Assembly: GCF_030433685.1 (NCBI RefSeq)
Contig: NZ_JAROCF010000001.1
Span: forward strand, 3,720,001 to 3,784,000
Direction of reading: 5' to 3'
Source: Leifsonia williamsii
GTDB lineage: Bacteria > Actinomycetota > Actinomycetes > Actinomycetales > Microbacteriaceae
DNA length: 64,000 nucleotides
The translations under genes were made by a program, and so were the position numbers. The notes under the pieces were generated by a model, which saw nothing but the letters and a program-made list of their open reading frames with translations, ran no database searches and had not been told where the DNA came from. Below, piece after piece: positions 49,674-64,000 of this stretch (the first letter of the stretch is position 1; every line of letters starts with the position of its first letter).

Positions 49674-52600
49674 TTGCCTGCACGCATGTCCGTGCGGCGC
49701 CGAATCGCGCTGAGCGTCGCTGCCGCACTCGTCCCCGTCGTGGCCCTCACGACCGCCCCCGCCGCCGTCGCGGCGCCCGAACCCGATCCGGTCGTGGCGT
49801 CCGGATCCGACTGGGCCGTCACCACCGCCCCCGGCGGCTACCTCGTCACGCTCGAGCTCGATGAGCCGCTGCCGATGGTCGACGACGCGCCCACCCTGCT
49901 GGTCGACGGCGAGCCGATCGGCCTGGCGACGGAGTCGGCCGACGGCCTGAGCCTCGCCGTCGTCACCGCCGATCCCGCCGTGGGCGATGCCGGCGCGGTG
50001 ACCAAGGGCTGGTCGAGCGGCGAGGAGGACAAGGCCGCGGAGACCCCGGTCGCGCCCGAGACGCCGGCGGTGCCCGAGAACAAGACACTCACCAGGCAGA
50101 TGAAGTCCTTCGCAGGGCTTGCCGCCGTCGACGACCCGTCGGCGCTCGGTTCGTACGGTGTCACGGAGGCCGAGTACGACTTCGGCGACCAGGCCGTCCC
50201 GCTCGCCGCGATCGGCGGCATCCGCGGTGAGCTCACCGGCAAGATGTACCTCACGAACGCGACGGGCGCGCGCCCCACGGTCGTGCTGCTGCACGGACGC
50301 CACACGTCCTGCTCCGGCACCGGCGCCAACCCGCTGCGGTGGCCCTGCGGCCCGACGCAGATGAACATCCGCTCCTACCTCGGCTACGAGGGCACAGCCC
50401 GATCGCTGGCGTCGCACGGCTACAACGTGCTGTCGATCGCCGCCAACGCGGTCAACTCCAACGACAACCAGCTCGCCCTCGACTACGGCGCGCAAGCGCG
50501 CGGCCAGCTCATCCTGGACACCCTCGGGATGCTCGCCAAGGCCGACGCGGGCGAGGCCGTCGCCTACGACGACATCACCACAGCGACCGACACGGTGCCG
50601 AGCACCACGACCACCCGCACCCTGGACGAGGCGTTCGTCCGCGCCACCACGCGCGCCGATCAGCCTGCAGCGGCGTCCGCTGTGACGGCTGCCTCGCTGA
50701 AGGGCCGTTTCGACCTCGGGCACGTCGGCATCATGGGGCACTCCCGCGGCGGCGAGGGCGTGGTCTCGGCGGCCACGCTGAACCAGGCGCTCGCGAAGCC
50801 GTACGGCATCGAGTCGGTCCTCCCGCTCGCCCCGGTCGACTTCGGCCGGATGACGCTGCCGGACGTGCCCACCGCCGTGTTCCTCCCCTACTGCGACGGG
50901 GACGTCTCCAACCAGCAGGGCCAGCACTTCATCGACGACTCGCGCCATGCGTTCGACGACGACGTGCTCCGCTCGGCCGTCTGGGTCATGGGCGCCAACC
51001 ACAACTTCTTCAACACGGTCTGGACGCCCGGCCTCTACCCGGCGGCGACCGGCGACGACTGGCGCACCAGCGACACGACCTCCACCTGCGCGACGACGAA
51101 CCCGACCCGCATGACGGCAGCCCAGCAGTACCAGGTCGGCGTCAGCTACATGACGGGCTTCTTCCGCCTCACGATGGGCGGCGAGACGCAGTTCCAGTCG
51201 CTGTTCGACGGCTCGGTCAAGCCCTCCACCACTGCGACCTCCTACGCCGACGTGCGCGTGATGGCGACGCAGCCCGCGTCGAAGACGGCGCTCGTCACCG
51301 ACTTCACGGAGACCAGCTCGCTCGTGCGGGTGTCAGGAGGCGCGACCGCCGCGGTCTGCACCAACCTCACCGGCCGCACGGTGCCGCAGTCCCTCCCCTT
51401 CTGCGCCACCACCAAGGCGTCCGCGCAGGTGCCGCACTGGACGCCCGGGTCGTTCGCGCCGAACGTCCCCGAGTTCCCGGTGACCCGGTTCCTCTGGACC
51501 GGAGCGTCGACGACGGACCCGACGGCGCCCAGCACCGGTGAGCTCCGCATCACGGTCCCGGCGAAGCTCCGCGACGTCTCCCGCCAGGCGCAGCTGACGC
51601 TGAAGACCGCCCCCGACGAGGCGGTCCAGACGGGCACCGACTTCACGATCACCGTCGTGGACGGCACGGGCAAGACCTTCGCCGTCGCCGCCTCCGCGGT
51701 CAACCCGCTCGCCGTGAACCGGATGCCGGGCGGCACGAACACCACGCTGAACAAGGTGGTGCTGCAGCAGCTGACCATCCCCACCTCCACCATCACGGGA
51801 ATCGACCTGACCGATGTGCGGGAGGTCCGGCTCACGGCGAAGGTCGGTGCCGACGGCACCGGCACGGGCGGCGTCTACCTCTCCGACCTCGCGTTCGACA
51901 CCCCGTCGGTCGGCACCGCCGTGGTGCAGACGCGCACGACGGTCAACGTCGCTCCGACCGCGGTCGAGGAGGGTTCCGGGCCCGGCACCGCCGACGTCGC
52001 GGTCTACCTGAACCGCGCCGAGAAGTCGCCCGTCACCGCGTACGTCAGCGTCATCGGCTCGGCCACCGGGCTCGTCGGGGTGGGGATGGAGAAGGTCTCC
52101 TTCGCGCCCGGCGAGACGTGCAAGGCCGTCACCGTGCCCACTCTCGGGAACACGGCGACGTCCACCTCGGCCAGCACGGCGTTCAAGGTGAGCGTCACGA
52201 ACACGACCGACGCCGTCATGGGAGCGGGCGCCTTCGCCAACCTCACCGTCCGCGAGGACGACGGGGTCACCGGCACCGCGACCGCCCTGCCGCCCGTCGG
52301 CGCCCAGGGCGAGGCGTGTGCAGAGCTCGCCGCCGCCACCACCCCCGTCCCGCTGACGACGTCGGCCGAGGATGTCGCCCCCGGCGGCGCCTTCACCCTC
52401 ACGGCGACGGGCTTCCGCGCCGGTGAGACCGTCGCCTTCACGTACGGCGGCACCGGCCTGGGGACCGCGATCGCCACGGCCGAGGGCACCGCGACGATGG
52501 AGGTGCCGGTCGCGGAGGACGCCGACCTCGGCCCCGCTGACGCGACGGCCACCGGCTCCGGCTCCGGCCGGCGCGCGACCGTCGCCGTGTCGGTGCTCGC

Positions 52601-53201
52601 GCCGACGGAGACCACCCTCGCGGCGACCCCGAAGAAACCGGCCGCCGGAGAGAAGGTCGTGCTCACTGCGACGGTCACCGGTCGCGACGCCACCGGTACG
52701 GTCTCGTTCGTGGACGGGGAGACGCCGGCCGCGAACCCGGCGCCGGGAACCGCTGCCGCCCTCGCGGCGGGCCAGACGGTGCTCGGCGAGATCGAGGTCG
52801 TTGATGGGGTCGCGACGCTGACCCTGCCCTCGGGCCTCGCCGCCGGCGAGCACACCATCACGGCCTCCTTCGCCCGCACGGCCACGGCCGACGCCTCGAC
52901 CTCCGACCCGATCACCGTGACGGTGGCGGCGGCTCCTCCTGCGGGCGGACCGGACGGACCGGGCAACGGCTCGGGCGGCGGCGCGGGAGGCGGCTCGGGC
53001 AACGGCCCGGGCAGCGGCCCGGGCAGCGGCTCGGGCAGCGGTTCGGGCACTGAGGTCGCCGGCAGCGGCGACACCACCGGCATGGACTCGCTCGCCGAGA
53101 CCGGCTCGGCCATCGGCCTGTGGCTGCTCGCCGCCACGACGGCGCTCCTCCTGGGAGGCGGCGTGCTCGCCGTATCGCGGCGGCGGCGGGCCATGAGCTG
53201 A
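49674..53201 (+). CDS. Large secreted hydrolase-like protein with LAETG sorting signal
   Basis: 1175 residues. A signal peptide (to about 33, APAAVA) is followed by an alpha/beta-hydrolase-like region (about 165-500: TVVLLHGRHTSCSGTG, HGYNVLSIAANAVNSNDNQL, GIMGHSRGGEGVVSAA with a lipase-type nucleophile elbow, VFLPYCDGDVSNQQGQHFID, WVMGANHNFFNTVWTPG with a late His). Then come a beta-sandwich region, an Ig/filamin-like repeat area (about 750-1090), a Gly/Ser linker (about 1095-1130) and LAETG, a hydrophobic helix and RRRRAMS for sortase anchoring. TTG 49674 is chosen for AGGAGA close upstream; ATG 49686 is the alternative. It probably acts as a wall-attached esterase, lipase or peptidase; the substrate is unknown. 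Confidence 0.82.
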   Translation: MPARMSVRRRIALSVAAALVPVVALTTAPAAVAAPEPDPVVASGSDWAVTTAPGGYLVTLELDEPLPMVDDAPTLLVDGEPIGLATESADGLSLAVVTADPAVGDAGAVTKGWSSGEEDKAAETPVAPETPAVPENKTLTRQMKSFAGLAAVDDPSALGSYGVTEAEYDFGDQAVPLAAIGGIRGELTGKMYLTNATGARPTVVLLHGRHTSCSGTGANPLRWPCGPTQMNIRSYLGYEGTARSLASHGYNVLSIAANAVNSNDNQLALDYGAQARGQLILDTLGMLAKADAGEAVAYDDITTATDTVPSTTTTRTLDEAFVRATTRADQPAAASAVTAASLKGRFDLGHVGIMGHSRGGEGVVSAATLNQALAKPYGIESVLPLAPVDFGRMTLPDVPTAVFLPYCDGDVSNQQGQHFIDDSRHAFDDDVLRSAVWVMGANHNFFNTVWTPGLYPAATGDDWRTSDTTSTCATTNPTRMTAAQQYQVGVSYMTGFFRLTMGGETQFQSLFDGSVKPSTTATSYADVRVMATQPASKTALVTDFTETSSLVRVSGGATAAVCTNLTGRTVPQSLPFCATTKASAQVPHWTPGSFAPNVPEFPVTRFLWTGASTTDPTAPSTGELRITVPAKLRDVSRQAQLTLKTAPDEAVQTGTDFTITVVDGTGKTFAVAASAVNPLAVNRMPGGTNTTLNKVVLQQLTIPTSTITGIDLTDVREVRLTAKVGADGTGTGGVYLSDLAFDTPSVGTAVVQTRTTVNVAPTAVEEGSGPGTADVAVYLNRAEKSPVTAYVSVIGSATGLVGVGMEKVSFAPGETCKAVTVPTLGNTATSTSASTAFKVSVTNTTDAVMGAGAFANLTVREDDGVTGTATALPPVGAQGEACAELAAATTPVPLTTSAEDVAPGGAFTLTATGFRAGETVAFTYGGTGLGTAIATAEGTATMEVPVAEDADLGPADATATGSGSGRRATVAVSVLAPTETTLAATPKKPAAGEKVVLTATVTGRDATGTVSFVDGETPAANPAPGTAAALAAGQTVLGEIEVVDGVATLTLPSGLAAGEHTITASFARTATADASTSDPITVTVAAAPPAGGPDGPGNGSGGGAGGGSGNGPGSGPGSGSGSGSGTEVAGSGDTTGMDSLAETGSAIGLWLLAATTALLLGGGVLAVSRRRRAMS

Positions 53202-53223
53202 CCACTGCCGACAGAATGGACGG

Positions 53224-53259
53224 GGCGCCGCGCCCGCTCTCTCGAGCGGGAGCGGCGCC
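53224..53259. terminator. Bidirectional terminator hairpin
   Basis: GGCGCCGC-g-CCCGCTC pairs with GAGCGGG-a-GCGGCGCC across the loop TCTC: 15 of 16 bp. It separates the convergent secreted-hydrolase gene and the end of the stress operon. Confidence 0.85.
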
Positions 53260-53300
53260 TCGGGGCGAAGTGGCCGAATGGTCCGCGAGCCGCGCTCTCG

Positions 53301-54965
53301 TCAGAGCCGGGCCCCTCCCGTGGTGAGGTAGTCGTGGACCATCGTCACGACGCTCGCTCCTTCGCCCACCGCGGCCGACATCCGTTTGACCGATCCGCTG
53401 CGCACGTCGCCCGCGGCGAACACGCCCGGTATCGAGGTCTCGAACGGCTGGGTGCGCACGTCGCCCTCCCCCGGTCGCGGTCCCGTGAGGAGGAAGCCGC
53501 GCTCGTCCCGCTGGATGTCGTGGCCGAGCCATGCCGTCGCGGGGACCGCCCCGATGAAGACGAACAGGTGGGCGGTCTCGAGCTCCTCGCGTTCGCCGGA
53601 GGGCCGGTGCACGACCGTGACGGACTCGAGCCGGGCCTGTCCCCTGGCCTCCACCACTTCGGATCGCGTGTGGACGGTGATGCGCGGGTGATCGCGGATC
53701 TGGACGATCAGGTATCGCGACATGTCACGACCGAGGTCGGCCGCGCGGACGATCAGGTGGACGCGGGACGCGGTCCCGGCGAGGAAGACGGCCGCCTGTC
53801 CTGCCGAGTTGCCGCCGCCCACCACGACTACGGGGTCGGTGCCGCACTCACGCGCCTCGTTGATCGTCGCCGCGTAGTAGACGCTGGTGTACTCGAACCG
53901 TTCGAGGTCCCTCACCTCCAGGCGGCGGTAGTCCATCCCCGACGCGACGACGACCGCGCCGGGACTCACGGTCGATCCGTCGGCGAACCGCACGGTCAGC
54001 GCCGCACCGGCGACGTCGAGCCCTTCCGCGGCGGCCGGGACCAGGACGGTGGCCCCGAACTTGGCCGCTTGAAGACGGGCGCGCTCGGCGAGCTCGGCGC
54101 CCGAGATCCCCGCCGGGAAGCCGAGATAGTTCTCGATCCGGGCGGATCGTGCGGCTTGGCCGCCGGTGGCGATCGCGTCGCTGAGCACGACCGACAGCCC
54201 GTCGGAGGCGGCGTAGACCGTCGCCGCCAGTCCCGCCGGCCCCGCACCGACGACGAGGAGATCGCACGTCGGTTGCGGCCGCACTCCGCGGATGCCGAGC
54301 GCCTCCGAGACGTCCGCGACGGACGGATTGCGCATGATCCGCTCACCGCCGACGATGACGACGGGAAGGTCGCCGACCTCCAGGCGCAGCCGCCGGACGA
54401 TGACCTCGGCGGCGTGATCGCCGTCCAGGTCGAGCAGCCGATGCGGGATCCGGTTGCGCGCGGCGAGATCCAGCAGCCTGCGGGTGTCCGGCGAGAAGCG
54501 CGAGCCCACGATACGGAGCCCGGCCCCGGACCCGATCGCCAGCGACCGGCGGATGAGATACGCGCGCAGGATGATATCGCCGAGCACCGGGTCGCGGGTG
54601 ACGATCCGCTGCAGCGCCGGTATCGGCACGGCGAGCACGGTGCCGGCCTGGAGCGCCCTCACCGTGGCGAAGGACGGCTGTCCCTCCAGCAGCCCGATGT
54701 CGCCGACGAACCGGCCGGGCCCGTGCACCTCGGTTCGTGCACCCTGCCCGTCCTGGCCGGTGTCCTCGACGACGACCCGGCCCTCGATCACCGTGAAGAA
54801 GGAGCCGATCGGCTCGCCCGCCCGCGCGAGCACCTGGCCCGCAGAAACGGGTTCGGTGGTGCCGTGCTCGCCGAGCGCCTGCAACTGCGGCGACGTGAGT
54901 CGCGGGTACGCGCCGAACGCGTCCGGCGTCTCCGCCGCCTGCGTCTCCGGGCCGGGGCCGGTCAT
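53301..54965 (-). CDS. Cyclic-nucleotide-binding domain / thioredoxin-reductase-like flavoprotein
   Basis: 554 residues. A Crp-type cyclic-nucleotide-binding domain (about 20-135: PIGSFFTVIEGRVVVEDTGQ, GRFVGDIGLLEGQPSFATV) is joined by a glutaredoxin/GST-N-like segment (about 150-215) to a thioredoxin-reductase fold (about 233-550: VVGAGPAGLAATVYAA, ATGGQAARSARIENYLGFP, VVGGGNSAGQAAVFLAG, GVFAAGDVRSGSVKRM). The redox CxxC of true thioredoxin reductases is absent, so electrons probably go from NADPH through FAD to a partner other than its own disulfide. It is the last gene of the nine-gene stress operon, overlapping the UBP zinc-finger stop by 1 bp. The sensor domain suggests control by cAMP or another nucleotide. 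Confidence 0.88.
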   Translation of the reverse strand: MTGPGPETQAAETPDAFGAYPRLTSPQLQALGEHGTTEPVSAGQVLARAGEPIGSFFTVIEGRVVVEDTGQDGQGARTEVHGPGRFVGDIGLLEGQPSFATVRALQAGTVLAVPIPALQRIVTRDPVLGDIILRAYLIRRSLAIGSGAGLRIVGSRFSPDTRRLLDLAARNRIPHRLLDLDGDHAAEVIVRRLRLEVGDLPVVIVGGERIMRNPSVADVSEALGIRGVRPQPTCDLLVVGAGPAGLAATVYAASDGLSVVLSDAIATGGQAARSARIENYLGFPAGISGAELAERARLQAAKFGATVLVPAAAEGLDVAGAALTVRFADGSTVSPGAVVVASGMDYRRLEVRDLERFEYTSVYYAATINEARECGTDPVVVVGGGNSAGQAAVFLAGTASRVHLIVRAADLGRDMSRYLIVQIRDHPRITVHTRSEVVEARGQARLESVTVVHRPSGEREELETAHLFVFIGAVPATAWLGHDIQRDERGFLLTGPRPGEGDVRTQPFETSIPGVFAAGDVRSGSVKRMSAAVGEGASVVTMVHDYLTTGGARL

Positions 54966-55228
54966 CACACGTAGTCCTCGTCGATGTAGCACCACTGCCA
55001 GCTCTCACCCGGCTCGTGCGAGCGGACGATGGGATGCCCTTCGTGCGCCGCATGCGCCCGCGCGTGCCGCATGGGTGAGGCGTCGCAGCAGCCCACCGTG
55101 CCGCAGGTGAGGCACAACCGGAGGTGCACCCACGGCGTTCCGAGCGCCAGGCATGCCTCGCACGCACCCGGCGTGCGCGGCGTCACCGGACGGATGAAGG
55201 CGATGTGGGGATCCCTACGAACGGTCAT
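54965..55228 (-). CDS. UBP-type zinc-finger protein
   Basis: 87 residues. The zinc ligands are CEACLALGTPWVHLRLCLTC, GTVGCCDASPMRHARAHAAH and EGHPIVRS, ending ESWQWCYIDEDYV. This is the ubiquitin-hydrolase-type (ZnF-UBP) fold found as stand-alone proteins in actinobacteria, usually beside a cyclic-nucleotide-binding flavoprotein, as here. Bacteria lack ubiquitin, so it may bind a C-terminal peptide or bring redox partners together. Start ATG 55228 lies inside the thioredoxin gene end (14-bp overlap). Confidence 0.88.
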   Translation of the reverse strand: MTVRRDPHIAFIRPVTPRTPGACEACLALGTPWVHLRLCLTCGTVGCCDASPMRHARAHAAHEGHPIVRSHEPGESWQWCYIDEDYV

Positions 55229-55718
55229 GGGGCGTTCCTCCCTCCCCGCCGTCGCGCGCGCCCTTCCGGGCGCGCCGCTGCCGCAGCATCGCGTCGTCGA
55301 ACCAGCGGCGCAGCACGGCAACGGGCGCCGCCCCGGCCTGCCGGGCGATCACCTCCCCGTGGTCGATGATCATGAGGGTCGGAACGGCCTGCACCGTGAA
55401 CCGGGACGACAGCAGGGGCGCCCGGTCGACATCCACCTTCACCAGCTTCACCTCGCCCGCACGCTCGGCAGCCAATTCCTCCAGGACCGGGCTGACCATC
55501 CGGCAGGGGCCGCACCAGGTCGCCCACATGTCGACGATCACGGGCAGGTCCGCCTGCTCGGCGATCTCCGCGAACGTGTCGTCGAGAGCGTCCGCGATCC
55601 ACGGGAGGGTCTGGTGGCAGTTCGCACAGCGCGGACGTCCGCTCGCAGCCGCGGGCACACGGTTCTTGCGCCCGCAGTTCGGGCAGCGGATCACCCTGGT
55701 GGCATCGACGGCGCTCAT
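55215..55718 (-). CDS. trxC: Thioredoxin with N-terminal zinc ribbon (Trx2/TrxC-like)
   Basis: 167 residues. An N-terminal zinc ribbon ([11 protein letters not shown] ... [10 protein letters not shown]) precedes the thioredoxin fold with active site [13 protein letters not shown] and the cis-Pro loop AVPTLMI. E. coli Trx2 has the same layout; its ribbon responds to oxidative stress and its partner is a thioredoxin reductase. A charged C-terminal extension ([14 protein letters not shown]) is extra. The start overlaps the clpB stop by 4 bp. In this operon it would repair oxidised client proteins alongside the chaperones. Confidence 0.9.
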
Positions 55719-58366
55719 GCGGTCGCCTGCGCTTCCGCGTCCGCCGTCGTCGGCGCATCCACCACGTCGACGACGATGTCGCCGTCCCGGACGTCGATGC
55801 GCACGGTCGATCCGTCACCGACCGTCCCCGACAGCAGCGCCCTGCCCAAGCGGGTCTCGATGTCGTGCGAGATGTATCGGCGCAGCGGTCTGGCGCCGTG
55901 GAGCGGGTCATAGCCGCGCTCGGCGATGAGGCGCCGGGCCTCGGGCGTGACCTCGAGCCCGATCTGGCGTTCCGCGAGACGGCGCGCCAGGTCGCCCATC
56001 AGCAGATCGACGATCGACTCGATCTGCTCCAGGCCGAGAGGCGCGAAGACGATGATGTCGTCGACCCGGTTGAGGAACTCCGGCCGGAAGCGGCCTCGCA
56101 GCTCGGCCAGCACCAGATCCTTGACGTTCTGCGGGATGCCCCCCGCGGTGTCGCGGGAACCGGTGAGCAGATGCTCCGCTCCGATGTTGGACGTCATGAT
56201 CACGATGGTGTTGCGGAAGTCGACGGTGCGACCCTGGCTGTCGGTGATCCGTCCATCGTCGAGCACCTGCAGCAGCGTGTTGAACACGTCAGGATGCGCC
56301 TTCTCGATCTCGTCGAAGAGGACGACGCAGTAGGGGCGCCGGCGGACGGCTTCCGTGAGCTGGCCGCCCTCGTCGTAGCCGACGTACCCGGGAGGGGCGC
56401 CGACGAGCCTGCTCACGGTATGGCGCTCCTGATACTCGCTCATGTCGAGCCGGATCATCGCGGAATCGCTGTCGAAGAGCGCACCGGCCAGGGCCTTCGC
56501 GAGCTCGGTCTTACCGACGCCCGTCGGCCCGAGGAAGATGAACGAGCCGATGGGTCTCCTGGCATCCCGGATGCCGGAGCGCGCTCGGATGATCGCGTCG
56601 GTGACGAGCCGCACGGCCTCCTCCTGGCCGACGACACGCTCATGCAGGATCTCGTCGAGCTTCAGCACCTTCGCGCGCTCCCCCTCCTGCAGCCGGGCGA
56701 CGGGGATGCCCGTCCAGGCCGCGACGATCTCGGCGATCTCCTCCTCGGTCACCACCTCGCGCAGGAGCCGCTGGCGGCCCTGCTTCTGCTGAAGCCTCTG
56801 CTCCTCGGCGGCGAGCTGACGCTCGAGATCGGAGAGCCTGCCGTAGCGCAACTCGGCTGCGCGGTTGAGGTCGTACCTGCGTTCGGCGTCCTCGGCTTCG
56901 CGCCGCACCTGCTCCAGTTCGCTCCGGAGCTCCTGGACCTTGCGGATGGCCTGGCGCTCCGCCTCCCACTGGGCGCGTTTCGCGTTCGCCTCCGCCTGGA
57001 GGTCGGCGAGTTCGCGCCGCAACTCCTCCAGCCGGATCCGGCTCGGCTGGTCCTTCTCCTTCTCCAGCGCCGCCTCCTCGATCTCGAGCCGGGTCACGCG
57101 GCGCGTGAGCTCGTCGAGGTCGGCGGGCATCGAGTCGATCTCCGTCCGCAGCCGCGCACAGGCCTCGTCGACGAGATCGATGGCCTTGTCCGGCAGGAAC
57201 CGGTCGGTGATGTAGCGATGCGAGAGCGTCACGGCCGCCACGAGCGCGTTGTCCTGGATGCGCACCCCGTGGAAGACCTCGAGCCGCTCGCGCAGCCCGC
57301 GGAGGATCGAGATGGCGTCTTCGACGCTCGGCTCATCCACCAGCTCCGTCTGGAAGCGTCGTTCGAGCGCGGCGTCCTTCTCGATGTGCTGCCGGTATTC
57401 GTCCAACGTGGTCGCCCCGATGAGGTGCAGCTCCCCGCGGGCGAGCATGGGCTTGAGCATATTGCCCGCGTCCATCGCGCCCTCGGTGGCACCGGCTCCG
57501 ACGAGGGTGTGGAGCTCGTCGATGAACAGCAGGATGCGCCCCTCTGCGGCCACGACCTCCGCGAGAACGGCCTTCATCCGCTCCTCGAACTCGCCGCGGT
57601 ACTTCGCGCCGGCGACGAGGGCCGCGAGATCGAGCTGGAACACCGTCTTGTCGCGGAGCCCTTCCGGGACGTCCGTGTTGACGATCCGCTGGGCCAGCCC
57701 CTCCACGATCGCCGTCTTGCCGACACCCGGCTCGCCGATCAGCACCGGGTTGTTCTTCGTCTTGCGCGACAGGATCTGGATGACCCGGCGGATCTCGGTG
57801 TCGCGCCCGATGACGGGGTCGAGCCGGCCGGCGCGGGCATCCGCCACGAGGTCGCGCCCGTACTTCTCGAGCGCCTCGTACGTCTGCTCGGGTGTCGCGG
57901 AGTTCACGTGCTGATTGCCGCGGACGGCAGTCAGCGCCTGGAGGAAGGACTCCCTCGTCACGCCGTTGCTCCGCAGGACGCGCGCGGACTGCCCTCCGCT
58001 CGGGTCGTCGGCCAGCGCGAGGAGCAGGTGCTCGACCGAGACGTACGAGTCCTTCAGCCGGTTCGCCTCCCTCTCGGCGCGGTCGAGGGTGGCCGCCAAC
58101 GTGCGGGAGAGGAACACCTGACCAGGGGTCGCCCCTGGGCCGGTCGTCCGCGGTTTCCGTTCGATTGCCTGCTGCACCTCGGTGAGGAGGTCGGCCACGT
58201 CGACCCCGGCGGCTTCGAGCAGCCGCGGGATCAGACCGTCCTCCTGCGTGAGAAGGGCGAGCAGGAGGTGCTCGTTCTCGGTCTCGGTCTGCCCGTTCCT
58301 GGTGGCGATGCTCTGGGCCTCCTGCAGGGCCTCCTGGGACTTCTGAGTCAGCTTGTTCATCTCCAT
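55715..58366 (-). CDS. clpB: ClpB protein disaggregase
   Basis: 883 residues. The layout is: N-terminal repeat domain (1 to about 150, [15 protein letters not shown]), first AAA+ (Walker [14 protein letters not shown]), the coiled-coil middle domain (about 405-530, [38 protein letters not shown]), and second AAA+ ([34 protein letters not shown]). The middle domain makes it ClpB rather than ClpA/ClpC, and there is no ClpP-docking tripeptide loop visible. ATG 58366 is 8 nt after AAGGAGA; it overlaps cbpM by 10 bp. It works with the DnaK system upstream to reactivate aggregates. Confidence 0.95.
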
Positions 58367-58674
58367 GGCGGAGTCTCCTTCCCGGAGCGGATGACGGATC
58401 GCTGCGCTTCGAGCACGTCGATCCGGGCGAGCAGGTCGATGACGAGTGCGACAGCGGCGTAGTTGAGGGACAGGTCGGCGTGCAGGCGCACGATGCGCCG
58501 CACCTGTTCCGGCACGTCCGGCGTGAACCACAGCCGACCGGACGCGTCGACCGCCGCCGCTACGAGCCCGAGCTCGACGAACCGCCGGACCAGCTCGGGA
58601 TGGACGCGTGCGGCATGAGCGACCATCCCGAGGTCGAGGCGGGGCGGGATCACCGGAAGCAGGGGGGAGCTCAT
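58357..58674 (-). CDS. cbpM: CbpM-like chaperone modulator (MerR-fold)
   Basis: 105 residues. A MerR-type small fold: [40 protein letters not shown], then [20 protein letters not shown] and [15 protein letters not shown]. This last helix matches CbpM, which binds and inhibits the J-domain of CbpA. In most actinobacterial dnaK operons this place is taken by the repressor HspR; this protein is too short in the HTH region and lacks the HspR C-terminal tail. It overlaps cbpA by 4 bp. Confidence 0.82.
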
Positions 58675-59609
58675 GACGACGACCTCGGATCGAAGCGGGA
58701 TTCGCGCTGCAGCTGCTCGAAGAGCTCGCGTTCACGCTGCGTGGGGTGCGGGGGGACCATGATCCTCACCTTCGCGAACAAGTCGCCCGGCCTCCCTCCG
58801 GGTTGCGGCATCCCCTGGCCCTTCAGCCGCAGCCGGCGCCCGCTCGACGAGCCGGGCGGGACGCGCACGGTGATGGGTCCTCCGGGGGCTCGCGTCGACA
58901 CGCTCGCGCCGAGGGCGGCCTCCCACGGCGAGATCAGCAGGTCCATCTCGATGTTCTTGCCGTCGAGGCGGAGGCGCCGGTCCGGCTTGACCCTGAGCGT
59001 GATGACCAGATCGCCGGCTCCGCCGTCCTGCCGCCCCGGCTGCCCTCCGCCGGAGACGCGGATGCGCTGCCCGTCGAGGGCGCCTGGCGGGATCTGGATG
59101 TCGAACGACTCGCGTTCGCCCTCGGGACCCGCGAGGATCACCGTCCGGGGGCCACCGCGGAACGCCTCCTCGACCGTCAGCTCCAGTTCGGCCTCGGAGT
59201 CCATCCCGCGGCGCGAACCGAAGACGTCGCCGAAGAGGTCCTCCCAGTCCACGGACGCACCGCCCGGGCCCGCTCCCGCCTGCGCGCTCGACCAGCTGAA
59301 TCCGGACGGCCCCGGCCGGGCGCGCGTGCGGCCTCCCGGGCGTGCACCACCGGCCGGCTGCGATGCGTGCTCGCGTTCGGCCTCCGCGTAGCGGCGGAAC
59401 TCCGGCCCGAAGCGGTCGTACTGAGCCCGCGACTCCGGGTCGTTCAGCACGTGGTACGCCTCGCTGATCTTCTTGAAGGTGTCCTCCGCGCCGGGCTGCT
59501 TGTTCACATCCGGGTGGTACTTCCGGGCGAGCGAGCGGTAGGCGCGCTGGATCTCGTGGAAGTCGGCCGATCGCGGGACGCCCAGCAGCTGGTAGTAGTC
59601 GTCCGCCAC
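58671..59609 (-). CDS. cbpA: CbpA-type DnaJ co-chaperone without zinc finger
   Basis: 312 residues. The J-domain (1-70) has HPD at 32-34 and [21 protein letters not shown] Gly/Pro-rich linker with [13 protein letters not shown] follows, then the two C-terminal substrate-binding domains (from [54 protein letters not shown]). There is not one cysteine in the protein, so the DnaJ zinc-finger domain is missing: it is CbpA type. It stimulates DnaK ATPase. The pairing with CbpM supports the assignment. The gap to grpE is 3 bp. Confidence 0.92.
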
Positions 59610-59612
59610 GGC

Positions 59613-60113
59613 TCACTCCCGCGCCGGGGTGACGACGACGCCCGCAGGTCGCAGCAGCCGCTCGGGGGTCCCGAATCCCAGCCGGGCGACCGCCACGACG
59701 GTCTGCGGCGGCAGGTCGCCGCTCTCGACCACGGAGACGACCTCGTGGATGCGCGGATCGAACGGCACACCCACGCCGTCGATGCGCGGGTAGTCGAGCC
59801 GCTCGAGGGCGGCGACGGCCTGCTCGCGGATCGACTCCATGCCCTCTCCGAGCGGGTCGTTCACCTGCTTCGCGTAGACGACGGCATCCGTCAGTCCGTC
59901 CACCACGGGAAGGAAGACGGACGCGGCGCGGGCCCGCTCCACGTCTCGGACGAGGGCGAGTTCGCGGGCGGTGCGTTTCCGCACGTTGTCGAGATCCGCG
60001 GCCGCGCGCCTCCAGCGGTCGTCGAGCTCCGCGATCCTGGCGTCCCGTTCGTCGGGAGCCTGGGCGGTCGGCTCCGCGGTGGGCTCTGCCGTCGGTTCGT
60101 CCGAGGTGTCCAT
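59613..60113 (-). CDS. grpE: GrpE nucleotide exchange factor
   Basis: 166 residues, short for GrpE. A TAEPTAEPTA-repeat N-terminus precedes the long helix (DARIAELDDRWRRAAADLDN, RKRTARELALVRDVERARAA) and the beta-domain (PRIDGVGVPFDPRIHEVVSV, PQTVVAVARLGF, RPAGVVVTPA). PFDPRIHEVV is the family signature. It ejects ADP from DnaK. The gene is 11 bp after dnaK. Confidence 0.93.
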   Translation of the reverse strand: MDTSDEPTAEPTAEPTAQAPDERDARIAELDDRWRRAAADLDNVRKRTARELALVRDVERARAASVFLPVVDGLTDAVVYAKQVNDPLGEGMESIREQAVAALERLDYPRIDGVGVPFDPRIHEVVSVVESGDLPPQTVVAVARLGFGTPERLLRPAGVVVTPARE

Positions 60114-60124
60114 GTCCGGGTCCT

Positions 60125-62002
60125 TCAGTTCCGGTCGAAGTCGGCGTCGACCACATCGTCGTCGTCGTCCGCAGGGGCTCCCCCGCCTGCGGAGGTCGTC
60201 CCCTGATCCGGGCGGGCGACGGACAGGGCGGCGTCCACCTGCCGCAGTTCGCTCGTCAGCTCGCGCGCCTCCGACGCGGGGACCTCGCGTTCGACGGCCT
60301 CCCTCGCCTGCTGGACGAGCATCTCCGCGCGGGACCGCTCGTGCGCCGGCGCGGAGTCGCCGTGCTCGGCGAGCGCCCGCTCGACCCGGTAGGCGGCGGC
60401 GTCCAGCTCGTTCCGGGCGTCGATGTCCTCGCGCAGGCGCTGATCCTCGGCGCGGTTCTGCTCGGCCTCACGCACCATCCGGTCGATCTCGGCCTGGTCG
60501 AGGTTCGTGGTGCCGCTGATGGTGATGCCCTGCTCGGCTCCCGTGTCCTTGTCGCGCGCGGTGACGTTGAGGATGCCGTTCGCGTCGATGTCGAACGTGA
60601 CCTCGATCTGCGGCTCGCCCCGCGGCGCCGGTCGGATCCCGGTCAGCGAGAACCGGCCGAGGACGCGGTTGTCCGCCGCGCGTTCGCGCTCACCCTGGAG
60701 CACGACGATCTCGACCGAGTCCTGGTCGTCCTGCGCCGTCGAGAAGACCTCGCTCCGTCGCGCCGGGATGGTGGTGTTGCGCTCGATGATGGGCGTCATC
60801 ACCCCGCCGCGGGTCTCGACGCCGAGCGAGAGCGGGGTCACGTCGAGCAGGAGCACGTCGCTGACCTCGCCCTTCAGCACGCCCGCCTGGATCGCCGCGC
60901 CGACGGCGACGACCTCGTCCGGGTTGACGGTCATGTTGGGGTCCTTGCCGCCGGTGAGGCGCTTCACGAGCTCCTGCACCGCGGGGATTCGGGTCGAACC
61001 GCCGACGAGGATGACCTCGTCGATGTCGTTCTCGGTGACCTTCGCGTCCTGCATCGCCTGGCGCACCGGGCCGAGGCAGCGCTCGACCAGATCGGCGGTG
61101 ATGTTCTCGAAGGTGGCGCGCTTGAGCGTGGTCGTCAGGTGCTTCGGGCCCGCGGCGTCCGCGGTGATGAACGGCAGGCTCACCTGGGTCTGGCTCACCG
61201 AGCTGAGCTCGACCTTCGCCTTCTCCGCCGCCTCGAACAGCCGCTGGAGGGCCTGCGGATCGTTGCGCAGATCGATGCCGTTCTCCTTCTGGAACTCGTC
61301 GGCGAGGAAGTCGACGACGCGGCGGTCGAAGTCGTCGCCTCCGAGGTGCGTGTCCCCTGCGGTCGAACGCACCTCCACGACACCGTCGCCGACGTCGAGC
61401 AGGCTGACGTCGAACGTGCCGCCGCCGAGGTCGAACACCAGGACCGTCTCGTGCTCCTTCTTGTCGAGTCCGTAGGCGAGGGCGGCCGCGGTCGGCTCGT
61501 TGATGATGCGGAGGACCTCGAGACCGGCGATGCGACCGGCGTCCCGCGTCGCCGTGCGCTGCGCGTCGTTGAAGTACGCCGGGACGGTGATGACCGCCTC
61601 CGTGACCTTCTCGCCGAGGAATTTGGCGGCATCGTCGGCCAGCTTCCGCAGCACGAGAGCGCTGATCTCCTCCGGTGCGTACAGCTTGCCCCGGACGTCG
61701 AAGCGGGCTTCGCCGTTCGGGCCGGCGACGACGTCGAAGCCGACCGCCTTCGCCTCCTCCCCGATCTCGTCGAACGAGCGGCCGATGAACCGCTTGGCGG
61801 ACGAGATCGTCCCCTTCGGGTTCAGGATCGCCTGACGCCGCGCGAGCTGACCGACGAGTCGCTCACCGGTGTCGGTGAAGGCGACGACGGACGGGGTGGT
61901 TCTGGCGCCCTCGCTGTTCGGGATGACTCTCGCCTCACCGCCCTCCCACACGGCGATCACCGAATTGGTGGTGCCGAGATCGATGCCGACTGCCTTAGCC
62001 AT
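60125..62002 (-). CDS. dnaK: DnaK (Hsp70) chaperone
   Basis: 625 residues, full length. The ATPase domain shows [59 protein letters not shown] and [20 protein letters not shown] motif; the linker and substrate domain show [20 protein letters not shown] and [16 protein letters not shown]; the helical lid follows. The tail ends acidic ([14 protein letters not shown]). It starts within the end of hsp20 (8-bp overlap). Its placement after hsp20 and before cbpA suggests a second, stress-dedicated DnaK; whether another dnaK exists cannot be seen here. Confidence 0.96.
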
Positions 62003-62381
62003 GGGCTCCTCCTTCTTCGTGGTCCGTCGGGACGAGGACCGTCAGCACACCGCTGCCGAGGTGTGCCGTGAATCTCGAACTGTCGAGCATCTCGCCGACG
62101 AGGAGCCGCCGGACGAACTCCCCGCGCGGCCGTTCATCGACCAGGACGAGGTCGTCCGGTGCGAACGCGGGCCGGCGCTGCACCGTGATAGTGACGACGT
62201 TGCGCTCGACCCTCACGTCGATGTCGCGGATGTCGACCCCCGGCGCATCGGCGACAAGCACGTACTGATCGCCTCGCCGGTAGGCCTCCAGGGGGACCGC
62301 GTACGTGCGCCGGTTGGCGCCGCGTGCCTGCTCGATGGCGCTCTCGAGCTCCTGCGGCGGGTCGAACCCCAGCAGACTCAT
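61995..62381 (-). CDS. Hsp20 / alpha-crystallin small heat-shock protein
   Basis: 128 residues. The crystallin domain runs from [20 protein letters not shown] through [40 protein letters not shown] to the closing [18 protein letters not shown], with the G-V-L strand typical of the family end. It holds unfolding proteins for the DnaK-ClpB system. It is first gene of the operon; GAGGAGGGGG lies 4 nt before ATG. Upstream I find neither CIRCE nor a HAIR box. Confidence 0.92.
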
Positions 62382-62484
62382 CTCGCCCCCTCCTCGTCGA
62401 CCGCGCGGTGCTGTCGTGACGTGGATGGTGCGCCAGCTCCGCCGATTCCTCGTGGACCGGACGGAGCAGGAAATACGTGCGGCG

Positions 62485-62520
62485 GTAGACCTGTCAGGGT
62501 CATCGATCGAGGTCTACGGT
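62485..62520. promoter_or_regulatory. Inverted repeat and -10 between hsp20 operon and CdaR/PucR-like gene
   Basis: GTAGACCT (62485-62492) and AGGTCTAC (62510-62517) are exact complements with a 17-nt gap. The right arm overlaps TACGGT (62515-62520), a -10 ending 7 nt before ATG 62528, so that gene looks leaderless and the repeat could be an autoregulatory site. The site is 104-136 bp from the hsp20 start and could also control the stress operon. Confidence 0.6.
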
Positions 62521-62527
62521 CCAGGCC

Positions 62528-64000
62528 ATGAGTTCGTCGATCTCTCCGGACTCCGTCGCTCCGGCCTCCGTCGCTTCGGCCGGCGCCGCCACGGGCGCGC
62601 AGCCGGGCCTGTACGACGTCTTCCGCGTGGGCTCCGCGATGTTCGAGCGGCCCTCCACCCGCCGGACGTTCCGGCTCGCAGAGACGGCGGCGAGCGAGTT
62701 CGCGGGATGCATCGTGCACGCGGCCTACGTCATGTCGAGCGGGCACCTGGTTCGGTATTCCGGCAAGGAGGACCGCCGGCTCGACCTCCTCGTGGAGGCC
62801 AGGAGCGGGGCCAACGGCGTCCTCGCCCACGACGGTGCGTGGAGCTTCGCGCTCTTCTTCCGCGGGAACGGCAAGGTGAAAGGCGCGTTCGCGCTGCAGG
62901 CGGACGCGGAACCTTCGACGGAGACGATGGCCCTCCTCCTCGCGCTGGCGGAGCCGACCGGAGCAGCCCTGGCCGCGGCCGAGCTCATCGACCGGCAGCG
63001 CCGTCAGACGAAGGAGTTGCGCCGGCTGGGCAAGGCCACCGAGTCGTCGAGCCAGGTGATGGCCGCCACGATCGTGCGACTCAATGCGCAGCAGGCGATC
63101 CGGGACGCGATCGTCGTCGCGGCCGGTTCCGGCGGCGGTGAGACGCGGATCGTCGAGACCGCGAGCACAGCCACCGGTCGCCCGATCGTGCTGCAGGACT
63201 CCTTCGGGAACGACCTCGCGCTGGCGGGCGCCGGAGATCCGGCAGTGCGTCCGGTCGGGAACCTCTCCGTCGGCCCCGACCCCGCCTCCGGATGGCGCGC
63301 CTCCCCGATCCGCTCGCGCGGGGAGACACTCGGCATCCTCGGCATCTACGACCCGGACGACACCCGGAGCGACGACATCCGGTTCGCCCTCGACTACACG
63401 AGCGCGACGCTGGCGGTCGAGCTCGCGCATCGCCGCAGCGTCGCGGAGGTCGAGCTCCGGCTCGGCCGCGATCTCGCGGACGACCTCGTCTCGGGCCCCG
63501 AGGTGTTCGACGCCCTCGCTCGGGCGGGCGCCCTCGGCTTCGACCTGGGAGGCCTCCACCGCGCGGTCCTCGTCGCCTGGGAGACGCCGACGCCGAACGG
63601 CGTCGACGTGAGCGCCGCGGTCCGCTACCAGCTCGCGGCGATGCGCATCCCCGCGCTGGTCTCCCGGCGCCCCGAGGCGACACTCGCCATCGTCGCGGAC
63701 GGCCACGATCTCTCCCCGCTGTACGGCAGAGTGTCCGCCGCTCTGACAAGTCCCCGGGGAACGATCGGCATCGGGGGGCGCTGCGCCGCGAGCGACCTCC
63801 CCCGCTCGTTCGCCGAAGCGACGCGTGCGCTCCGCATCCGGGCCGATTCCCGGCAGCCGCTCGGGCTCTCGAACCACGACGAGCTGGGCCTCCTGCGAAT
63901 CCTCGACACCTCCGAGGACGGAGTCCGGCTGACGAGATACATCCAGGAGTGGCTCGGCGTCCTGATCGAGCACGACGCGCAGCACCGCGCCGACCTCGTC
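62528..64000 (+). CDS. CdaR/PucR-family transcriptional regulator with GAF sensor (3' partial)
   Basis: The frame from ATG 62528 is open to the last base: 491 residues without a stop; an in-frame TAG at 62486-62488 limits the start. After a Ser/Ala N-terminus, two GAF-like sensor regions are seen (about 35-165: CIVHAAYVMSSGHLVRYSGK, GVLAHDGAWSFALFFRGNGK, MALLLALAEPTGAALAAAEL; and about 215-310), then the degenerate GGDEF-like domain of CdaR (LGRDLADDLVSGPEVFDALA, GFDLGGLHRAVLVAWETPTP, TIGIGGRCAASDLPRSFAEA, LRILDTSEDGVRLTRYIQEW). The HTH_30 DNA-binding end should follow beyond the window. It is divergent from the stress operon and is the best candidate for its regulator; the ligand is unknown. 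Confidence 0.85.
   Translation, partial: MSSSISPDSVAPASVASAGAATGAQPGLYDVFRVGSAMFERPSTRRTFRLAETAASEFAGCIVHAAYVMSSGHLVRYSGKEDRRLDLLVEARSGANGVLAHDGAWSFALFFRGNGKVKGAFALQADAEPSTETMALLLALAEPTGAALAAAELIDRQRRQTKELRRLGKATESSSQVMAATIVRLNAQQAIRDAIVVAAGSGGGETRIVETASTATGRPIVLQDSFGNDLALAGAGDPAVRPVGNLSVGPDPASGWRASPIRSRGETLGILGIYDPDDTRSDDIRFALDYTSATLAVELAHRRSVAEVELRLGRDLADDLVSGPEVFDALARAGALGFDLGGLHRAVLVAWETPTPNGVDVSAAVRYQLAAMRIPALVSRRPEATLAIVADGHDLSPLYGRVSAALTSPRGTIGIGGRCAASDLPRSFAEATRALRIRADSRQPLGLSNHDELGLLRILDTSEDGVRLTRYIQEWLGVLIEHDAQHRADLV

Follow-up and report, generated by a model that had tools for sequence, protein, structure and literature searches.

The window analysed here, a 64,000-nucleotide stretch of the 3.89-Mb genome of Leifsonia williamsii (positions 3720001–3784000 of contig NZ_JAROCF010000001.1, hereafter C1), carries on its minus strand, at 53301–62381, an operon of nine open reading frames, all with Pfam matches above curated cut-offs. 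In the order of transcription, they encode Hsp20, DnaK, GrpE, a CbpA-like J-protein, a CbpM-like protein, ClpB, a zinc-ribbon thioredoxin, a UBP zinc finger, and a flavoprotein with a cyclic nucleotide monophosphate (cNMP)-type domain. The ATG codons at 55228 and 54965 were chosen as the starts of ubp and of the flavoprotein (reductase) gene, the latter giving 554 aa, the same as P0001. Re-measured, the spacing consists of six overlaps (hsp20/dnaK 8 bp, cbpA/cbpM 4 bp, cbpM/clpB 10 bp, clpB/trx 4 bp, trx/ubp 14 bp, and ubp/reductase 1 bp) and two gaps (dnaK–grpE 11 bp and grpE–cbpA 3 bp), in agreement with the first-pass annotation of this DNA, which had counted nine same-strand genes with gaps of 11 bp or less and six overlaps of 1–14 bp. 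Its nine genes stand, but the boundary it drew around them does not, as a divergent PucR-type regulator stands alongside. No sigma70-like promoter, and hence none separating the chaperone half from the redox half, and no terminator was detected in 53100–62700, by what is a weak test in GC-rich DNA (shuffle means of 0.2 and 2.1, respectively). Homologs of hsp20 occupy the same position in G020, G021, G023a, G009, and L043, and a search at the operon of G018 gave no match.

Table 1 Features of the operon and its upstream region (positions in the window unless stated otherwise)
Feature	Position	Strand	Evidence or remark
hsp20, small heat-shock protein, 128 aa	61995..62381	-	PF00011, E 1e-12
dnaK2, operon-type DnaK, 625 aa	60125..62002	-	TIGR02350, 953 bits (cut-off 822)
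grpE2, 166 aa	59613..60113	-	PF01025, E 5.8e-30
cbpA-like class B J-protein, 312 aa	58671..59609	-	PF00226 and PF01556 only; HPD at 32; without zinc domain
cbpM-like MerR_2 protein, 105 aa	58357..58674	-	PF13591, 46 bits
clpB, 883 aa	55715..58366	-	TIGR03346, 1316.7 bits (cut-off 1232); Clp_N
TrxC-type thioredoxin, 167 aa, four-Cys ribbon and WCGPC	55215..55718	-	PF00085 and TIGR01068 above cut-off
UBP-type zinc finger, 87 aa	54965..55228	-	PF02148, 47 bits
CNB, glutaredoxin-like, and thioredoxin-reductase-like flavoprotein, 554 aa, no redox CxxC	53301..54965	-	PF00027, PF07992
Flavoprotein residues 363–367, YYAAT, position of the thioredoxin reductase CxxC active site	53865..53879	-	
Flavoprotein Cys374 codon, sole cysteine invariant in 90/90	53844..53846	-	
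Operon–regulator gap	62382..62527	.	Contains inverted repeat; without HspR box
Divergent PucR/CdaR-type regulator, 557 aa	62528..64000, on to C1:3784201 beyond the window	+	HTH_30, GGDEF_2

The gene set is complete for Hsp20, DnaK/GrpE/CbpA, and a full-length ClpB with two Walker A motifs (GEPGVGKT and GPTGVGKT), and it lies apart from the HspR-linked set of the same genome. The housekeeping dnaK is found at C1:354462–356321, adjoined by grpE, dnaJ, and hspR, and a second clpB lies near C1:329.5–331.7 kb, which bears out the earlier suggestion that the operon is separate from the housekeeping chaperones. The housekeeping HspR scores 138.5 bits, over the NCBIfam cut-off of 105. The product of the second clpB has 717 aa and matches best the ClpB model, from model position 148, with 1141.8 bits; it falls under the cut-off of 1232, which is set for the full-length protein. 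The Clp_N domain is present in the operon ClpB and absent from this housekeeping ClpB. Further Clp ATPases, at 49–59% to the operon ClpB, are encoded at C1:1976–1979 kb and C1:3823.9–3826.4 kb. We searched for the HspR box, which we take to be CTTGAGT-N7-ACTCAAG, and found one site with one mismatch ~110 bp upstream of the housekeeping dnaK and another before the same gene with three mismatches, as well as a three-mismatch site 28 bp upstream of the housekeeping clpB. In L129, this other ClpB gene of the genome (4547–6748) begins without a Clp_N domain just behind its HspR-box-like site. The 64-kb window gave no match at up to three mismatches, and HspR control of the window operon was rejected for this reason. 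The operon is apparently controlled separately from the housekeeping set.

The DnaK sequences also set the two apart. The operon DnaK is 54–56% identical to the housekeeping DnaK of its own genome. When 15 genomes were searched with the housekeeping DnaK (14 operon bearers and Nonomuraea, L068, included for its flavoprotein), each had a housekeeping DnaK 70–100% identical to that of the window genome and at least one further DnaK at 53–57% identity (two in Nonomuraea). A quick tree built from 45 DnaKs placed the 30 operon proteins and the 15 housekeeping proteins on two sides with a support of 100. Because operon and housekeeping DnaKs split in this way, the sequences indicate that the operon is an old paralogous set rather than a recent duplicate.

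The fifth gene can be read in two ways. Its product scores 30.7 bits against the NCBIfam HspR model (cut-off 105) and 25.7 bits against CbpM (cut-off 138), and the homologs on plasmid records are named CbpM. It might be an HspR paralog and, as repressor of the operon it belongs to, the true regulator, given that it follows the J-protein gene as in dnaK-grpE-dnaJ-hspR and that its weak HspR score exceeds the CbpM score; we nevertheless hold this to be very unlikely, since the score is far under the cut-off that the genome's own HspR passes, the window has no HspR box, and the residues for DNA contact are changed. According to the available text of PMC4063869, MerR regulators place a Tyr and an Arg on DNA, both of which are replaced in CbpM. 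With the register set by eye, these positions are Phe and Trp in the CbpM-like protein and Tyr and Arg in the genome's own HspR. The gene was therefore rejected for now as the HspR of the operon, and the Phe/Trp reading makes a J-protein modulator more likely than a repressor. In the same by-eye register, Asp67 may match Glu62 of CbpM, the acidic contact to the HPD His; Streptomyces homologs have Gly here. A PDB sequence search with the protein returned nothing significant (best E 0.015). CbpM itself is described as conserved in gamma-proteobacteria in the accessible part of PMC8215388.

The first-pass annotation had proposed that the operon forms a compact unit that both refolds and reduces proteins under combined heat and oxidative stress; on this reading, the flavoprotein would be a true NADPH-thioredoxin reductase recharging the neighboring thioredoxin. 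The overlapping trx-ubp-reductase order, the thioredoxin reductase (TrxR) fold, and database names such as 'thioredoxin reductase (NADPH)' would fit this proposal, but the active site does not. Solved thioredoxin reductases align with flavoprotein residues ~236–550, and YYAAT stands at their C-x-x-C. Across 90 aligned flavoproteins (the window, 80 loci, and 9 others), Cys is absent from columns 363–366, where the CxxC would be, and a CxxC occurs elsewhere in two. Cys234 and Cys374 are the sole cysteines of the window protein, and the invariant Cys374 lies off the CxxC site. Moreover, it reaches 201.1 bits against TIGR01292, under the cut-off of 343.45, whereas the canonical TrxR of the same genome (C1:700950) passes with 385.8 bits and has CATC. 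Thus, the 'thioredoxin reductase' label that many database entries give to this CxxC-less family is probably wrong, and the flavoprotein probably does not recharge the neighboring thioredoxin. With the CxxC lacking in 90 of 90 sequences, a self-contained NADPH-TrxR-thioredoxin arm is unlikely, and we now regard the proposal of a complete refold-and-reduce unit as quite improbable. The operon thioredoxin most likely draws on the canonical TrxR.

Residues 150–222 of the flavoprotein have the predicted order b-a-b-a-b-b-a, which resembles a glutaredoxin, and include no Cys in the window protein. In the cyclic-nucleotide-binding (CNB) domain, the phosphate-cassette Arg, whose position we take from the CRP/PKA motif and the register, is found in none of the 90 sequences at the column of window Ser98, and the acidic cassette residue is retained as Glu in 67 and Asp in 22 of the 90. 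An AlphaFold model of moderate quality (pLDDT 73, pTM 0.50), used for fold type and not for geometry, had AhpF as its best Foldseek match. The thioredoxin has the zinc-ribbon TrxC pattern of a four-Cys ribbon and WCxPC; C12, C15, C31, C34, C69, and C72 are kept at ≥95% in 29 operon thioredoxins, and the score of 112 bits against the PRK10996 TrxC model is just under the cut-off of 125. The UBP finger is the only zf-UBP match in the genome, and its Cys/His pattern is conserved in 25 sequences. A role as a Pup reader was considered and dropped, as the genome has no match to PF05639, with which the control, Corynebacterium glutamicum, did match. A PHROGs search gave no match for the UBP or CbpM-like protein. 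It is conceivable, if improbable, that the flavoprotein/UBP pair is a new redox device coupled to disaggregation. The NADPH-FAD protein, with neither CxxC nor the canonical phosphate-binding Arg, would then use Cys374 or direct flavin transfer and, via the UBP finger, pass electrons or signal the NADPH state to the chaperones; disaggregation would thereby be gated by the reducing power of the cell, here under PucR-type control.

The divergent regulator is of the PucR/CdaR type, with HTH_30 at 81.9 bits and GGDEF_2 at 50.6 bits, both above cut-offs. Its homologs adjoin the operon in G018, G020, G021, G023a, and Diaminobutyricibacter (63–74%), and homologs at 31–40% are found near the operon at Amycolatopsis, Streptomyces, Actinacidiphila, and Arthrobacter loci (L046, L047, L050, L052, L055, L057, L063, L066, L071, and L126). 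Among the latter, only UBP and the flavoprotein were found near the regulator in L066, and the regulator lies 3' of the flavoprotein in L063. Position and conservation suggest that the PucR-type protein regulates the operon, and the 146-bp gap between the two is likely the control region. Five relatives have a common CAGTGCA...TTCTT block in this upstream gap. An 8-bp inverted repeat, GTAGACCT-N17-AGGTCTAC, lies at 62485–62517 upstream of hsp20; it is absent from all seven other upstream stretches and, because relatives do not share it, was given no weight. On the 3' side of the PucR-type gene, just beyond the window, orf593 (C1:3784189–3785970) encodes a predicted 593-aa protein without a Pfam match and, by eye, with a hydrophobic N-terminal part. 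It is kept beside the PucR-type gene in G018, G020, and G023.

To see how widely the genes travel together, we used the flavoprotein alone as bait in 84,980 species genomes and examined the best 80 loci. Chaperone genes of the operon are present at 22 of these, and all 22 belong to the actinobacterial phylum: Diaminobutyricibacter, Streptomyces, Actinacidiphila, Mycolicibacterium/Mycobacterium, Amycolatopsis, Nocardioides, Paractinoplanes, Arthrobacter, Streptosporangiaceae, Solirubrobacterales, and additional bins. The flavoprotein gene lies 3' of the chaperones on the same strand at 18 of the 22 and upstream of or divergent from them in L045, L048, L054, and L063. About 1 kb is inserted between chaperones and flavoprotein in L047 and L056, and some chaperone genes were not found in L058 and L065. 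UBP was found at 16 of the 22 loci. The chaperone run was not found in 56 loci (L066–L122 excluding L071), among which L085 has two distant ClpB-like matches; UBP is near the flavoprotein in 15 of these 56, including loci of Flavobacteriaceae and Bradyrhizobium. The UBP–flavoprotein pair thus extends beyond Actinobacteria; joined to the chaperones, it was seen only in Actinobacteria. The pair had been described earlier as actinobacterial; its occurrence there is confirmed, but it is not confined to them, being found also in Flavobacteriaceae, Bradyrhizobium, and others.

The CbpM-like protein was searched for in 148 genomes sampled from the class, where a cut of E ≤ 3e-10, picked after the gap in the table was seen, gave 19 loci from 18 genomes. 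We excluded seven rows with weaker values (1.3e-6 to 9.7e-6), which lie in the range of HspR-like matches. At a threshold of E ≤ 1e-60 and with at most nine candidates scored per genome, the flavoprotein was found in 78 of the 148 genomes. Of the 19 cbpM-like loci, 12 have it on the same contig at a distance of up to 11 kb (G000, G088, G095, G103, G107, G124, both loci of G128, G143, G156, G167, and G198); in the second G128 locus and in G198, a stop falls inside both the cbpM-like and the flavoprotein match. This proximity and the recurrence of the order in other Actinobacteria argue that the operon order is not due to chance. Among 28 genomes of the same genus, six, the window's own counted, have strong cbpM matches, around which the dnaK-to-flavoprotein run was confirmed, and none was found in the other 32 relatives searched. 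The cbpM-like gene of L134 (G021) has an in-frame TGA within the matched stretch, where the reading frame stops at 96 aa, perhaps merely shortening the C terminus. Overall, the gene-neighborhood comparison across Actinobacteria recovered the same order with variations. The joining of a chaperone half to a redox half, reported in the first-pass annotation, is real, but it is not peculiar to this genome.

The operon also occurs on plasmids. A PLSDB tblastn search with the flavoprotein matched 597 records, and six plasmids, taken from the first 14 of 30 rows listed among these, were examined: Rhodococcus DK176 pDK4, DK17 pDK2, R. pyridinivorans pA, R. aetherivorans pN1, Nocardia farcinica unnamed1, and Streptomyces angustmyceticus p1. 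All six carry dnaK-grpE-J-protein-cbpM-clpB-trx-ubp-flavoprotein. A 'general stress protein' is annotated at the hsp20 position in five, with a YflT domain in the pDK4 copy; none is annotated there on pN1, the gene table of which may be incomplete. On pDK2 (L124, 14679–27143), the operon is followed by a DUF1931 gene, two Hsp20 genes, a Dyp-type peroxidase, and a family 1 encapsulin, together a larger stress cluster. On pDK4, TniQ/TniB/TnsA-like transposition genes (TniQ confirmed) and a recombinase are found (L123, 19310–26565), ~4–12 kb beyond the DUF1931 gene that closes the run.

These copies raise the possibility that the operon is a stress-tolerance island that became mobile recently and is passing between actinobacterial orders, comparable to the transmissible locus of stress tolerance (tLST) of proteobacteria. 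Besides the plasmids in Rhodococcus, Nocardia, and Streptomyces, the near-identity of the Nocardia and Rhodococcus plasmid copies (end branches 0.003–0.017) speaks for movement, as do two chromosomal cases. The housekeeping DnaKs of G009 and G023 are almost the same (end branches 0.004 and 0.002), whereas their type-B operons are far apart (0.16 and 0.15); divergent operons in hosts with near-identical housekeeping DnaK are most simply explained by separate acquisition. The G023 type-B copy, furthermore, has transposase genes on either side. Nevertheless, we consider the island reading unlikely. The Micrococcales operons make up one side of a 17-row DnaK and ClpB tree (100/99), so that inter-order transfer of the window copy is not required. 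Its right-hand neighbors are common to G023, G018, and G020, and the window's genome carries an additional ~8 kb of genes. G004 keeps the same right flank and the 5' part of orf593 without a cbpM match, which looks like loss of the operon. Likewise, the GC content at third codon positions of the operon (0.85–0.93) is only slightly below that of most window genes.

Within the genus, grouping the five Leifsonia-type operons without Diaminobutyricibacter was not rejected (approximately unbiased test, p-AU 0.347). Forcing G018 and G020 together in the operon tree was rejected (p-AU 0.011), in conflict with the housekeeping tree, where the two form a pair (86/96); this pair was named only after the first trees had been seen, and the conflict is a small sign that may point to reshuffling within the genus. 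The window copy itself bears no sign of recent arrival, and the traits of a mobile island (patchy presence, plasmid copies, and near-identity) hold for the operon kind and not for this copy. The trees and flanks thus describe what appears to be an old actinobacterial set that is patchily kept and has moved at times, plasmids included. Of the suggested mobility between actinobacteria, movement as such is upheld by the plasmids and by the divergent copies in near-identical hosts; movement between orders was not seen in the 17-row tree.

The chaperone half of the set is already in print. A strain-specific 'heat shock island' of Propionibacterium freudenreichii JS9 and JS20 contains it, with no thioredoxin, UBP, reductase, or regulator named in the available text, so that the likeness is by description only (PMC5644110), and dnaK1/dnaK2 and grpE1/grpE2 of this species are named in the accessible part of an expression study (PMC3880035). 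Similarly, a dnaK2-grpE2-dnaJ2 operon is named in Streptomyces avermitilis beside dnaK1-grpE1-dnaJ1-hspR, and sigma8 bound only the dnaK1 promoter among the heat-shock probes, leaving the dnaK2 operon promoter unbound; the resemblance lies in a second dnaK operon beside an hspR-type set and is again by description, as the text available names those three genes only (PMC5402319), and other Streptomyces carry the window operon order. In the literature searched, which left subscription journals mostly outside and was in part accessible as excerpts, we found no paper describing the whole unit and no redox genes or PucR-type regulator joined to chaperones. The points that are new here are the PucR-type partner, the contrast in the ClpB N domain, the plasmid copies, and the CxxC-less flavoprotein.

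Known systems resemble the operon in part. The HspR-type dnaK-grpE-dnaJ-hspR operon is similar in its first three genes and in a fourth that is MerR-like, whereas the window operon differs in a DnaK at 53–57% identity, no HspR box, clpB, trx, ubp, and flavoprotein in the run, and a PucR-type neighbor. The tLST, or locus of heat resistance, is an accessory mix with Hsp20, a Clp disaggregase, and thioredoxin, and to this extent it is similar; it also holds ClpK/ClpG, FtsH, YfdX, and HdeD, and we know of no DnaK-GrpE set in it. Unlike a tLST disaggregase, the operon ClpB scores above the ClpB cut-off and below that of 1900 bits for ClpK (799.5 bits) and ClpG (783.5 bits). AhpF, which also has an N-terminal thioredoxin-fold part, the TrxR-like ferredoxin-NADP reductases, and YpdA share the TrxR core with the operon flavoprotein, in which, however, a cNMP-type domain and a Cys-less glutaredoxin-like segment precede a CxxC-less core.

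Taken together, the sequences make it likely that this is an accessory, second heat-shock disaggregase operon of Actinobacteria with a redox appendage of unsettled chemistry. The PucR-type protein would sense a signal and switch on one long transcript; Hsp20 would hold aggregates, DnaK, CbpA, and ClpB would extract and refold them, and the CbpM-like protein may tune the J-protein. The thioredoxin could reduce non-native disulfides in the extracted chains and be recharged by the canonical TrxR of the genome. The CxxC-less flavoprotein and UBP would have a different NADPH/FAD-linked job, in which the flavoprotein would most likely serve as an electron donor to a partner other than a CxxC thioredoxin or as a sensor of redox state. 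Loss and movement, plasmids included, may have kept the set patchy.

Several observations weigh against this picture. The CbpM-like protein stays under the cut-offs of both the CbpM and the HspR models. The three-mismatch HspR site at the housekeeping clpB is weak alone, as 25 of 200 shuffles have one, and finding no box in the window is close to what chance predicts (0.65). No UBP was detected at L043, L044, L045, L054 (where the contig ends), L059, and L062, and no flavoprotein was found near seven of the 19 cbpM-like loci (G071, G074, G080, G110, G112, G141, and G144, which are mostly drafts in many contigs); the redox tail is, for these reasons, an optional part of the set. No PucR-type match was obtained at the Mycobacterium/Mycolicibacterium loci, the five Rhodococcus/Nocardia plasmids, the type-B copies L135 and L136, or L044, L045, L048, L049, L054, L058, L059, L062, and L065, some of which cover little upstream DNA. 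Since so many operon loci are without a homolog, PucR-type control cannot be general, and the regulator accompanies only some members of the family. The CAGTGCA...TTCTT block is, in addition, poorly kept in the window.

HspR control is a known feature of actinobacterial housekeeping chaperone operons. The complete second set of disaggregase genes described here lacks an HspR box and has its own candidate regulator and a ClpB with the N domain that the housekeeping ClpB is missing. If the set confers tolerance to heat or thiol stress, the plasmid copies make this trait transferable among soil actinobacteria. The CxxC-less flavoprotein speaks against a simple refold-and-reduce reading, and for its reductase family, which is seen in several phyla, the operon is a concrete setting in which to find the real partner. 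Directly downstream of the operon and convergent with it, the window encodes at 49674–53201 a predicted secreted protein of 1175 aa, without a match in the congener stretches compared. By eye, an Ig-like repeat can be made out, and the C-terminal tail resembles an anchor.

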